NCBI GenBank assembly: GCA_013002345.1
Contig: JABDKH010000187.1
Coordinates: forward strand, 1-48,543
DNA length: 48,543 bases
Direction of reading: 5' to 3'
Source: Rhodothermales bacterium
Lineage (GTDB): Bacteria; Bacteroidota; Rhodothermia; Rhodothermales; JABDKH01
Shown here piece after piece: positions 23,558 to 28,853 of the stretch. The notes beneath the pieces were generated by a model. It was given only the letters and a program-made list of their open reading frames with translations. It was not told the DNA's origin and made no database searches. How positions within the stretch are numbered: position 1 is the first letter of the stretch; every line of letters begins with the position of its first letter. A program made the translations under genes and the position numbers.

Positions 23558-23631
<74 letters not shown>

Positions 23632-23637
23632 CGCAAG

Positions 23638-23726: not shown

Positions 23727-24158
23727 TCAGATCGGCGATCTGTCTAGCTCAGCACGGATCCACGCCACAATCTCCGGATGATTCCGGGCTACACGATCCA
23801 GCAACCTGCCAACGTCTTCCTTATCGAGTCGATCGACCAGATGGCTGGCCGCCTGCGACACAGGACTTGCATCAGTCTCCTCAAGACACGCGAGGAGTGC
23901 GGCGACCACGTGCTTGCACCACGCTCCCGCAAAATAGGGGCATGAGCATTCCACGCTCGTCACCACCTTGTCGTTGTGTCGTATCCGAATGTTGTATGGG
24001 ACATATTGACTTCCTTTTACAAGCGCGTCGATGGTAGTCTCGGAAGTTCGCTTGAGTGAAACGACCGCTCCTTCACGCTGATACCTTTCGCCACGATCGT
24101 ACGAGCCTTCTGCCGCGTGATCATGGACGTAAGACGTGGTCAGACCCGGTACCTTCAT
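23727..24158 (-). CDS. SWIM zinc-finger protein
   Basis: A 143-residue protein with a SWIM-type zinc finger, CSCPYFAGAWCKHVVAALL (CxC...CxH), at about residues 90-108. Before it is the common lead-in seen in such proteins: SYDRGERYQREGAV, then VKGSQYVPYNIRIRH. SWIM domains bind DNA or protein partners. In bacteria small SWIM proteins often accompany SNF2 helicases, but none is here. The C-terminal 35 residues are helical and charged. I start it at the ATG at 24158 because the conserved part begins there. An ATG at 24332 would add 58 unconserved residues and overlap the divergent gene at 24313. The 154-base gap to that gene puts both promoters together, so it may regulate, or be coregulated with, the Rieske cluster; this is inference. 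Confidence 0.75.
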   Translation of the reverse strand: MKVPGLTTSYVHDHAAEGSYDRGERYQREGAVVSLKRTSETTIDALVKGSQYVPYNIRIRHNDKVVTSVECSCPYFAGAWCKHVVAALLACLEETDASPVSQAASHLVDRLDKEDVGRLLDRVARNHPEIVAWIRAELDRSPI

Positions 24159-24312
24159 GGCAAGTCGATTTAGTTTGGTGAAACGCTGCGCTGTCGGCAA
24201 TCTGCCCGACAATTCGGACACTGTCCTGAGTGATTGAAGGTAACGTTTTCCCGTTTTCGAAGACCTACATTCCCGTAACCGCCCCATTCCTATGACCCGA
24301 CAATAGAGCCCC

Positions 24313-26295
24313 ATGCCAGACGACACGAGCAAACCTCAAGAACCCGCTAAAATAATGTGGCACAAGGTTCTGAATCCCGATGAACTGCCCGAGGGCCGCG
24401 TTCAAAGTGTCACCTGCGCACATAAGACCCTCTGCTTGACCCACTTGAATGGAAGCTACGGTGCGCTTGACAACAGGTGTCCACACCAGGGCGGCCCGCT
24501 GGGCGAAGGTTCCATCGAGAATGGACTCCTGCGATGTCCGTGGCATGGCTGGGACTATGACCCTCTTTCAGGAAAGGCACCGGGCTTCGATGACGGTGTA
24601 GAGTCGTTCCCGGTCGAGAAGCGTAGCGACGGAATCTATGTCGGCCTCCACGCCGAGGTCGAACGAACGCGGACCGTGTCAGACGTGATGACGGACACAA
24701 TGATCGCGTGGGGCGTGCGATGGGTCTTCGGTATGGTTGGTCACTCGAACCTTGGCCTGGCGGATTCCCTGCGCGCGCAGGAGGGCCTCGGGCAGTTGAG
24801 ATATATCGGCATTCGCCATGAAGGTGCAGCGTCGTTCGCCGCCTCGGCATACGGAAAACTGACCGGCCGACCCGCCGCCTGTTTCAGCATTGCGGGTCCT
24901 GGAGCCACAAATCTTCTTACTGGCCTGTGGGATGCGAATGTTGACCGGTCGCCAGTTCTTGCCCTGACGGGCCAGGTGGACACCCAGGTCCTGGGTCCGG
25001 GCGCGTTTCAGGAAATCGACCTGCAAGCCGCGTTCGGACGAGTCGCGCAGTGGAGCCAGTCAGTCCTTCACAGCAGTCGCCACGCGGAACTCATGAATCT
25101 CGCCTGCAAGAATGCGATTCTCAACAGAGGCGTATCGCACTTGATTTTTCCGGACGAGGTACAGTCACTTGAAGCAGCGGAATCGCCGGCGGGGAAACCG
25201 AACGGGCGCGTGACGACAACAGACATCTCCCCGCCGTCGGAAAGTCTAGATCGAGCCATCGCCCTCCTGTCCGACTCGGCGCGGCCCGTCATCATTGTTG
25301 GTCATGGCGCTCGCAACTCGATGAATAGCATCATTGAGCTTGGAGAAGCGTTGTCGTGCCCCATCATCACCACCTTTAAGGGGAAAGGGCAGATCTCCGA
25401 CCGTCATGAACTCGGTTGTGGCGTCCTCGGTCGAAGCGGAACGCCGATTGCGAGTTACTTCATGAATGAGGCCGACTTGCTTCTTGTTTTCGGTGCAAGC
25501 TTCAGCAATCACACCGGTATCTCGAGCAAGATTCCGATTATTCAGGTGGACTTCGACCCGATGGCGCTGGGCAGATTCCACTCGGTGGAAGTCCCGCTAT
25601 GGGGAGATGTTGGAGTGACGGCGTCTCATCTTTTGCAAAGTCTGCTGGAGAGTCAGGCCGTTGACCAACGCGCAGAAATCGCTGAACGCTGGCGAATCTG
25701 GAGACAGGAAAAAGAGAGTCGGCGCAGTGATGACCGCGGTGAGGGTATCAACTCCGCCCAGATCTTTGAGGTGCTTACGGAGACGTGTCCGGCAGATGCA
25801 ATCATTGCCGTCGACGTGGGTAATAATACCTACTCGTTCGGACGGTACTTTGAATGCGAGCACCAGACGGTTCTCATGTCGGGCTATCTCGGGTCGATCG
25901 GATTCGCCTTTCCGGCAGCGATGGGAGCGTGGGCCGCGACACAGGAGAAGGACTCACCGTTTGCCGGGCGGCCCGTCGTGTCTATCTCCGGCGATGGTGG
26001 ATTCGCTCAATACATGGCTGAGTTGACGACGGCCGTGAAGTACGGGATGAACATCACGCATGTGTTGCTGAACAACAGCGAGTTGGGCAAGATCTCGAAG
26101 GAGCAGCGAGCCGGTAACTGGGACGTCTGGCAGACGTCGTTGACCAATCCGAGTTTCGCTGCGTTCGCAAAGCTATGCGGCGCACGAGGCCAGCGAGTGA
26201 AGACGGCAAACGACCTCCGCGCGGCAATTGAAAAAGCCCTGCTTCACAACGGACCGAGTCTTGTTGAAGTCCACTCTGACGCTCTCCTGATATAG
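24313..26295 (+). CDS. Rieske [2Fe-2S] domain fused to a thiamine-diphosphate-dependent enzyme
   Basis: A 660-residue fusion. Residues about 14-113 are a Rieske domain with both ligand pairs intact: CPHQGGPLGEG (Cys56, His58) and CPWHGWDYD (Cys75, His78). Residues about 118-660 are a full ThDP enzyme of the acetolactate synthase/pyruvate oxidase type. The PYR domain has RHEGAASFAASAYGKLTG, with Glu170 as cofactor-activating acid. A central domain follows near 311-440 (RPVIIVGHGA). The PP domain has GDGGFAQYMAEL from residue 560 with the metal-binding pair Asn587-Asn588. Such enzymes cleave or join 2-oxoacids, and the oxidases pass electrons onward; here the Rieske centre is a plausible acceptor or donor. 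It is first of three genes; the next starts 24 bases on. Each domain is clear; the substrate is unknown, and I do not know this fusion from a characterised enzyme. Confidence 0.9.
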   Translation: MPDDTSKPQEPAKIMWHKVLNPDELPEGRVQSVTCAHKTLCLTHLNGSYGALDNRCPHQGGPLGEGSIENGLLRCPWHGWDYDPLSGKAPGFDDGVESFPVEKRSDGIYVGLHAEVERTRTVSDVMTDTMIAWGVRWVFGMVGHSNLGLADSLRAQEGLGQLRYIGIRHEGAASFAASAYGKLTGRPAACFSIAGPGATNLLTGLWDANVDRSPVLALTGQVDTQVLGPGAFQEIDLQAAFGRVAQWSQSVLHSSRHAELMNLACKNAILNRGVSHLIFPDEVQSLEAAESPAGKPNGRVTTTDISPPSESLDRAIALLSDSARPVIIVGHGARNSMNSIIELGEALSCPIITTFKGKGQISDRHELGCGVLGRSGTPIASYFMNEADLLLVFGASFSNHTGISSKIPIIQVDFDPMALGRFHSVEVPLWGDVGVTASHLLQSLLESQAVDQRAEIAERWRIWRQEKESRRSDDRGEGINSAQIFEVLTETCPADAIIAVDVGNNTYSFGRYFECEHQTVLMSGYLGSIGFAFPAAMGAWAATQEKDSPFAGRPVVSISGDGGFAQYMAELTTAVKYGMNITHVLLNNSELGKISKEQRAGNWDVWQTSLTNPSFAAFAKLCGARGQRVKTANDLRAAIEKALLHNGPSLVEVHSDALLI

Positions 26296-27215: not shown

Positions 27216-28853
27216 ATGAATCCCGCTGAAACAACGCATGCCTTGAAGGTCGCCACCTGGGGTGAACTCGCGGATCGCACTCCCATGTACGCCCTCGCAG
27301 AGTCAGTCGATCTCGTGGTGGTCCGATACGACGACAATGTATCCGTACTCTACGGACGCTGTCTGCACCGCGGCGCCCTGATGTCGGACGGACACGTCGA
27401 CGGGCACAACTTGATATGTGGCGTCCATGGATGGGATTATCGATACGATACCGGTGTCAGCGAGTACGACAATTCGGAAGTGCTGCACAAATTTGCTGCA
27501 TGGGTGAGTCTCGATGACGACGCGGTCTATGTCGACCGGCACGAAATAATGGAGTGGACGAAGGAGAATCCACAGCCGTATCAGCGGGAGGAATATCTCG
27601 GTCTGTATCAAGACGTCCACGGTGGACCGGAGGAACCGTTCAATGCCTATGTTCAGGAGCTCGCAAGAAACGGCCTCAAGAGCTTCGGACATCACGGCAA
27701 GATGTCCGCCATGGGTGTACCTCTCACCGACTTGCCGCGATGGGACGACATCCAGATCCTGACCGCGCAGCTGGCGCGCCGGCCGCTCGAAGATGATGCT
27801 GGAGTCGGCACCGAAGTTGTCATCGGGCCGGGCGCCGCCCGGCCGCTGTCGCTTGACATCCCCATCTTTGTCAGTGACATGAGTTATGGCGCGCTGAGCG
27901 AGGAGGCGAAGACTGCCCTGTCGATCGGGGCCGAGCAGGCCGGCACCGGAATCTGCTCGGGTGAAGGTGGTATGCTTCCGGAGGAACAGCAGGCCAATAC
28001 ACGCTACTTCTACGAGCTCGCGTCTGGAAAATTCGGCTGGGACCTCGACAAGGCCTGCCGATCTCAAGCCTTCCACTTCAAGGCCGGCCAGGGAGCCAAG
28101 ACGGGTACCGGTGGACATCTTCCGGGCGAAAAGGTCGTCGACAAGATTGCACAGGTACGGGGGTTGGAGCCCGGTACGCCGGCGATCAGTCCTTCGCGTT
28201 TTCCCGACCTCGTAACGGCACAGGATTTCTCTCGGCTGGCCGACGCAATCCGCGAACGAACCGGCGGGATTCCGATCGGATTCAAGATGTCGGCTCAGCA
28301 TATCGAGGACGACATCGACTTCGCACTTGACTCGGGCACCGACTACATCATCCTGGACGGTCGTGGAGGCGCGACGGGTGCCGCACCGGAGATCTTCAAG
28401 AACAATATCTCCGTACCTACGATGGTCGCTCTCGCGCGGGCGCGACGTCATCTGGATAGCCGCGGGGCCGAAAAGGTCAGCCTCATCATCACTGGCGGCC
28501 TGCGAACGGAATCGGACTTCGTTAAGGCACTTGCGCTCGGAGCAGACGCGATAGCTATCGCGAACTCCGCGATCCAGGCAATCGGTTGCCTGGGAATGCG
28601 CGCCTGCCACACGAACAACTGCCCCGTCGGTATCGCGACGCAGAAGAAGTCACTGCGATCACGAATCATCATCGAGAAATCGGCAGAGAGATTGACGAAC
28701 TATCTCAAGGCTACCGTTCATCTCATGCAGATCCTTGCGCGAGCCTGCGGACACAATCATCTTGGCCAGTTTGAGTCAAGAGACCTTACGACATGGAAAC
28801 CCGATATCGCCAGGTTGACCGGTATCTCTTTTTCTGGAGTCGGGATGTCCTGA
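27216..28853 (+). CDS. Rieske [2Fe-2S] domain fused to glutamate-synthase-type FMN/3Fe-4S domain
   Basis: A 545-residue fusion. Residues about 8-108 are a Rieske domain with CLHRG (Cys49, His51) and CGVHGWDYRYDTG (Cys68, His71). Residues about 150-530 are the FMN-binding core of glutamate synthase: PIFVSDMSYGALSEEAKTAL near 216, GICSGEGGMLPEE near 245, GQGAKTGTGGHLPGEKV near 291, SPSRFPDL, ILDGRGGATGAAP near 379, and CLGMRACHTNNCPVGIATQ, with Cys458, Cys464 and Cys469 spaced C-x5-C-x4-C exactly as in the 3Fe-4S site. The glutaminase domain and its N-terminal nucleophile Cys are absent, so it cannot release ammonia from glutamine by itself. It is more likely an oxidoreductase passing electrons between FMN, 3Fe-4S and the Rieske centre. 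Last of the three-gene unit. Domain calls are sure; the reaction is unknown. Confidence 0.9.
   Translation: MNPAETTHALKVATWGELADRTPMYALAESVDLVVVRYDDNVSVLYGRCLHRGALMSDGHVDGHNLICGVHGWDYRYDTGVSEYDNSEVLHKFAAWVSLDDDAVYVDRHEIMEWTKENPQPYQREEYLGLYQDVHGGPEEPFNAYVQELARNGLKSFGHHGKMSAMGVPLTDLPRWDDIQILTAQLARRPLEDDAGVGTEVVIGPGAARPLSLDIPIFVSDMSYGALSEEAKTALSIGAEQAGTGICSGEGGMLPEEQQANTRYFYELASGKFGWDLDKACRSQAFHFKAGQGAKTGTGGHLPGEKVVDKIAQVRGLEPGTPAISPSRFPDLVTAQDFSRLADAIRERTGGIPIGFKMSAQHIEDDIDFALDSGTDYIILDGRGGATGAAPEIFKNNISVPTMVALARARRHLDSRGAEKVSLIITGGLRTESDFVKALALGADAIAIANSAIQAIGCLGMRACHTNNCPVGIATQKKSLRSRIIIEKSAERLTNYLKATVHLMQILARACGHNHLGQFESRDLTTWKPDIARLTGISFSGVGMS

Follow-up and report, generated by a model that had tools for sequence, protein, structure and literature searches.

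Can a Rieske iron-sulfur domain and a complete thiamine diphosphate (ThDP) enzyme work within a single polypeptide, and what would the Rieske domain do there? The question is raised by a gene, here named RTPP, on a contig of a Rhodothermales bacterium (JABDKH010000187.1, positions 1 to 48,543; this whole stretch of 48,543 nucleotides is referred to as the window). Its reading frame is open from an ATG start through 660 codons with no interruption, as originally predicted. Pfam analysis revealed, in this one ORF, the announced fusion of a Rieske domain (residues 16-89, 1.2e-16) with TPP_enzyme_N (121-239, 1e-32), TPP_enzyme_M (312-439, 2.7e-31) and TPP_enzyme_C (501-653, 5.5e-34), all four matches being well over cut-off. 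A complete ThDP enzyme, residues 118-656, is thereby in frame with the Rieske domain, and the boundaries place the join at residues 113-118, around the predicted residue 115. The features are collected in Table 1.

Table 1. Features of the RTPP cassette in the window, and rubredoxin-bearing relatives of RGlt in other genomes
Feature	Position	Strand	Evidence and remarks
RTPP, Rieske-ThDP fusion gene, 660 aa	24313..26295	+	ORF listing, Pfam, full-length homologues
Rieske ferredoxin-type [2Fe-2S] domain, residues about 16-113	24358..24651	+	PF00355; nearest solved structures are Rieske ferredoxins
RTPP Rieske cluster ligands C56-x-H58-X16-C75-x-x-H78	24478..24546	+	Invariant, alignment A1
ThDP PYR domain (TPP_enzyme_N)	24673..25029	+	Pfam; catalytic E170 at 24820-24822
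RTPP central domain (TPP_enzyme_M), probable FAD site	25246..25629	+	Pfam; nearest central domains of known structure belong to FAD enzymes
ThDP PP domain (TPP_enzyme_C)	25813..26271	+	Pfam; GDG-X24-NN at 25990-26076, invariant columns
DUF5996-like protein, 282 aa	26320..27168	+	Weak PF19459 match, 16.1 bits, under cut-off 25
RGlt, Rieske + FMN/3Fe-4S domain of glutamate synthase, 545 aa	27216..28853	+	Pfam, fold match
RGlt Rieske ligands C49-x-H51-X16-C68-x-x-H71	27360..27428	+	Invariant, alignment A2
RGlt 3Fe-4S cysteines C458-X5-C464-X4-C469	28587..28622	+	Aligned with glutamate synthase cysteines; invariant
Rubredoxin-FMN-core protein	L176:3883-5469	-	
Rubredoxin-FMN-core protein	L177:4201-5787		
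Rubredoxin-FMN-core protein	L178:3654-5240		
Rubredoxin-FMN-core protein	L179:133-1539	-	

The cofactor motifs are intact on both sides of the join, in line with the original prediction. The N-terminal domain has the CxH-X15-17-CxxH ligands of a predicted cluster in a Rieske fold; the X16 spacing is that of ferredoxin and oxygenase Rieske domains, and the nearest solved relatives are the stand-alone Rieske ferredoxins of oxygenase systems. The ThDP part possesses the catalytic glutamate E170, in the motif RHE, and the G560-D561-G562-X24-N587-N588 motif. R168, H169 and E170 are invariant columns of the family alignment (A1), as is E597, which aligns with the glutamate of the KDEQ motif of Lactobacillus plantarum pyruvate oxidase (LpPOX).

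Short RTPP peptides were scanned against 84,980 species genomes and gave 268 coding stretches, of which 80 relatives were kept; these align from residue 17 or earlier to residue 643 or later with 64-73% identity. The fusion occurs, at 53-75% full-length identity, in at least 14 bacterial phyla (Planctomycetota, Rhodothermota, Nitrospirota, Acidobacteriota, Actinomycetota, Gemmatimonadota, Pseudomonadota, Latescibacterota, Myxococcota, Nitrospinota, Bacteroidota/Balneolota, Thermodesulfobacteriota, Cyanobacteriota and Calditrichota), as well as on plasmids of four haloarchaea (63-65% identity) and one Mycobacteroides plasmid (54%), where it is annotated merely as ‘thiamine pyrophosphate-binding protein’. 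On the haloarchaeal plasmids (L118-L121), RTPP lies among DsrE, mercuric-reductase-like, rhodanese, TauE/SafE and haloacid dehalogenase genes.

The four Rieske ligands are kept in all 94 copies compared; a suspected loss of the motif in L083 and L085 was rejected, these two copies differing only by a longer loop and retaining all ligands. Relatives with separate genes were looked for, and no split Rieske/ThDP pair was found among the same 94 members: 94/94 are fused, so an error at the join is not supported. As the same join recurs in 94 records from many phyla, on complete plasmids and chromosomes, the view that mis-assembly or mis-annotation produced the fusion is already refuted and retains a negligible probability. 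The fusion is genuine, conserved and presumably functional.

A tree built from the ThDP part alone places all 94 fused copies in a single clade, apart from the 16 Rieske-free ThDP enzymes included (SH-aLRT 99), several long outgroup branches making the placement of the outgroup unsure. Among the nearest neighbours of the window copy are a Rhodothermaceae MAG and genomes from the order Rhodothermales. No Rieske-free ThDP relative above 36% identity was found in 198 genomes of the phylum or 72,556 plasmids. The simplest reading of this distribution is a single ancient fusion followed by wide transfer. To note, the RTPP match in L091/L171 contains one internal TGA, and these may be broken or frameshifted copies.

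The prediction had also described the ThDP part as acetolactate-synthase-like, and on this point it is corrected: whether searched in PDB, in NCBIfam or with whole profiles, the top scores go to pyruvate oxidases. A family-profile search of PDB sequences ranks Escherichia coli PoxB (3eya, 3.4e-86) first and LpPOX (2.8e-75) next, and the top NCBIfam match is pyruvate oxidase (1.9e-115). Scores remain under the curated cut-offs of the pyruvate oxidases NF006377 (386.6 versus 742), NF006591 (308.5 versus 792) and TIGR02720 (279.8 versus 638), as they do under that of acetolactate synthase TIGR00118 (286.8 versus 538 bits). The AlphaFold2 model (mean pLDDT 87.8) matches LpPOX, acetohydroxyacid synthase (AHAS) and PoxB in Foldseek, with a TM-score to 3eya of 0.88-0.90 of the target. 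At the sequence level, the ThDP region resembles the pyruvate oxidases PoxB and LpPOX more than acetolactate synthase; like pyruvate oxidases, it has ThDP PYR, central and PP domains with the catalytic glutamate and GDG-X24-NN.

When the central domain is taken alone, AHAS is nearest; it ranks highest together with POX, cyclohexanedione hydrolase (CDH), PQO, PoxB and glyoxylate carboligase, all of them FAD enzymes, while oxalyl-CoA decarboxylase and benzaldehyde lyase, which are ADP-binding or flavin-free relatives, rank lower. Because its closest central domains are those of FAD enzymes, RTPP likely binds FAD. The presence of FAD would by itself be no proof of an oxidase, since acetohydroxyacid synthases bind this cofactor but put it to no net redox use. 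The latter fact also speaks for the main rival reading, in which RTPP would be a non-oxidative ThDP carboligase or decarboxylase of AHAS or acyloin type and the Rieske domain a redox-sensing, regulatory or docking module carrying no catalytic electrons. Such an enzyme would agree with the shared fold and high score of AHAS, with its proximity in the central domain, and with those RTPP genomes that have no identified redox partner. It agrees less well with nearest whole-domain relatives that are oxidases, with a ferredoxin-type Rieske domain whose ligands are present in 94/94 copies, and with partners that are redox flavoproteins bearing one-electron modules (see below), and we consider it unlikely, although the most serious of the competitors.

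The candidate partner found most often is encoded in the window itself. The cassette consists of RTPP, 24 bases, a DUF5996-like gene, 47 bases, and a second Rieske fusion, RGlt, ~0.9 kb downstream of RTPP. The DUF5996 assignment is weak in the window, but another protein of its BLAST cluster, encoded next to an RGlt that has no RTPP nearby, reaches 93.6 bits with PF19459. RGlt assembles a Rieske domain (Pfam, 1.2e-10) and a Glu_synthase domain (2.9e-89), and a fold search matches it to glutamate synthase, of which it has the FMN barrel and the 3Fe-4S cysteines. The Rieske motif and CX5CX4C are retained in 59/59 full-length copies of its cluster. A glutaminase domain was not found by Pfam in its 545 residues. 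GTGGHLPG (54/59) stands where GltS has GEGGQLPG, and ISPxRFPD replaces ISPPPHHDIYS; because these conserved segments of the FMN domain differ, the name glutamate synthase is not appropriate for RGlt. RGlt often stands alone, without RTPP, and is the commoner of the two (37 versus 6 of 198 genomes, four of the 37 being of rubredoxin type), so it must have another use too. In L068, RGlt is split in two ORFs, possibly a broken or frameshifted copy.

Neighbours were counted in 60 loci in which RTPP is flanked by 3 kb on either side. RGlt is near RTPP in 32 of them, the DUF5996-like gene in 17, a membrane protein with a ferric-reductase domain and a Rieske domain in eight, and an FMN-reductase flavoprotein in three; about a third (21/60) have no candidate partner nearby, and some genomes lack any RGlt. 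Thirteen of 23 checked RTPP genomes without RGlt in the local locus carry it elsewhere. In samples of genomes drawn without regard to RTPP or RGlt, and uncorrected for shared ancestry, RGlt is present in 5/6 RTPP genomes versus 32/192 others of the phylum (p=9e-4), and in 6/7 versus 7/53 among relatives (p=2e-4). This conserved cassette with a second Rieske fusion, overlooked in the original prediction, says more about the role of RTPP than the fusion alone.

The membrane protein carries its Rieske domain at the C-terminus (for example L043:4149-5189, L010:3764-4819 on the minus strand, and L170:8291-9073), recurs beside RTPP or RGlt, and corresponds to domain model M4, a ferric-reductase-domain protein with Rieske (PMC3591440). 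It is usually followed by a gene for a conserved protein of ~250 amino acids that belongs to no Pfam family and has cysteines near GEIVDSKC. RTPP and RGlt might, instead of being each other's partners, each feed the respiratory chain through this protein, RGlt acting on another substrate. It is also found near RTPP-free RGlt, the median identity of its Rieske domain to that of RTPP is 38% (RGlt Rieske, 30%), and one locus (L170, genome G077) has RGlt, the membrane Rieske protein, the DUF5996-like gene and RTPP in one run. Yet the membrane protein occurs in a minority of loci and is missing from the window cassette, which makes such parallel inputs improbable.

A Na+/H+ antiporter gene lies directly downstream of RTPP in 13 of the 60 loci (L052:6257-7555, L030, L064, L120 and others), sometimes preceding a TrkA_C membrane protein, and may point to a role in salt or pH. 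A function in salt or pH stress was considered on the basis of this gene and of the halophile hosts, and set aside as the evidence is too thin.

Natural module swaps bear on the function of the N-terminal domains. In L130 (1198-2742; the genome of L010) and L131 (1192-2727; Aliikangiella), tandem CDGSH [2Fe-2S] domains replace the Rieske domain on an RGlt core that is 64-66% identical, and both genomes also carry RTPP. In four genomes of the same phylum, one or two rubredoxin domains replace it on a related FMN core with 49-51% core identity (Table 1). Of the cyanobacteria with RTPP, four have an FMN-reductase neighbour but lack RGlt, two show the reverse, with RGlt but without this flavoprotein, and in one both are missing, in genomes that are possibly incomplete. 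No replacement of the Rieske domain by another module was seen in RTPP itself. These swaps indicate that the RGlt N-terminal module, which looks like an exchangeable electron carrier, serves in that capacity, and that RTPP has a flavin enzyme as its partner. The RTPP Rieske domain is proposed, by analogy, to be an electron carrier as well. A requirement for direct Rieske-to-Rieske contact is weakened, two RTPP genomes having a CDGSH-type partner.

Several pieces of evidence thus suggest that RTPP is a soluble ThDP-dependent and probably FAD-dependent 2-oxoacid oxidase of the pyruvate oxidase lineage, whose electrons exit via its own Rieske domain, a reading to which we assign a probability of about 0.55. 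In known members of this lineage, LpPOX passes electrons to O2 and PoxB to quinone by means of a membrane-binding tail; the active site is located between subunits. A tail of the PoxB/PQO type was not found in RTPP: the alignment stops at residues 525-528 of the 572 of PoxB. The RTPP chain ends a few residues further on, where the PoxB tail would begin, and the tail is therefore taken to be absent. ThDP would add to a 2-oxoacid, pyruvate or a similar one, which is decarboxylated; the enamine would reduce the FAD predicted in the central domain; single electrons would pass from FADH2 to the Rieske cluster and from there to a dedicated partner. This partner would most often be the neighbouring RGlt, in some lineages the FMN-reductase flavoprotein, and in others perhaps the membrane ferric-reductase-domain/Rieske protein. 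The FAD content, the substrate, the exit through the Rieske domain, the direction of flow and the physiological role are inferred.

Genomic pairing leaves the direction unfixed, and glutamate-synthase FMN domains are in principle bidirectional. The partner might hence reduce RTPP through the Rieske domain, for a reductive reaction or to keep a carboligase FAD reduced. Rieske ferredoxins have a potential of about -150 mV, and reductive carboxylation needs potentials far under such values; moreover, NAD(P)H:ferredoxin reductase is not among the regular neighbours. Reverse flow is accordingly given little credence. Returning to the oxidase, a further and rather doubtful extension is that RTPP and RGlt form a nicotinamide-free couple, in which oxidative decarboxylation of a 2-oxoacid powers a glutamate-synthase-like reduction via two tethered Fe-S carriers of exchangeable type (Rieske, CDGSH or rubredoxin).

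Among known systems, PoxB (3eya/3ey9), LpPOX (1pox) and Corynebacterium glutamicum PQO (9ev5) share with RTPP the three-domain ThDP fold, the catalytic glutamate, GDG-NN, the FQE motif and a probable FAD domain; pyruvate oxidases are its best profile matches and rank with the top fold matches. RTPP differs from them by its extra N-terminal Rieske domain, the lack of a C-terminal membrane tail, scores at half of the NCBIfam cut-off and an identity of at most about 36% to Rieske-free relatives. The AHAS large subunit has the same fold and the nearest central domain, whereas RTPP lies under the TIGR00118 cut-off, is fused to a Rieske domain and co-occurs with a redox flavoprotein. Pyruvate:ferredoxin oxidoreductase (PFOR) is likewise a ThDP enzyme coupled to Fe-S clusters, but has another subunit plan, [4Fe-4S] clusters and uses CoA, and no PFOR domain was found in RTPP by Pfam. 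The M4-type protein is a Rieske-tagged redox protein of the same cassettes, but a membrane heme protein and not a ThDP enzyme. For RGlt, the closest description is that of type 5 CDGSH proteins, tandem CDGSH plus a glutamate synthase FMN domain (PMC3174974). These combine the RGlt core with a different [2Fe-2S] module at the N-terminus, and L130 and L131 are such proteins; the window RGlt bears a Rieske domain in place of the tandem CDGSH.

No description of a Rieske-ThDP fusion, nor any paper on Rieske or rubredoxin forms of the RGlt core, was found in the open-licence literature. RTPP thus represents a genuine fusion family of wide distribution, set in a redox cassette that recurs and is rich in Rieske domains; it is common in uncultured lineages from marine, symbiotic and halophilic settings. 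If its Rieske domain takes electrons from ThDP/FAD, this would be a third electron exit of the pyruvate oxidase family besides O2 and quinone, giving a self-contained 2-oxoacid-to-ferredoxin-type enzyme without the oxygen-sensitive clusters of PFOR. The RGlt family, with its Rieske, CDGSH and rubredoxin heads, would offer a natural series for carrier swaps on one catalytic core.

Other features were noted around these genes. In Nitrospirales and a myxococcote, an EamA transporter and a glutathione-synthetase-like ATP-grasp protein are encoded as a pair upstream of RTPP or RGlt (L009:844-2876, L012:2-1992, L030:3926-5968). Promoter and terminator scans gave a yield close to that of shuffled sequence. 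In the window, a tRNA-Pro (CGG) gene (23558-23632, plus strand) is located upstream of a SWIM zinc-finger ORF and the RTPP cassette. The listed TTG start of this ORF (23727-24332, minus strand) overlaps the start of RTPP by 20 bases, and its true start is probably further inside.
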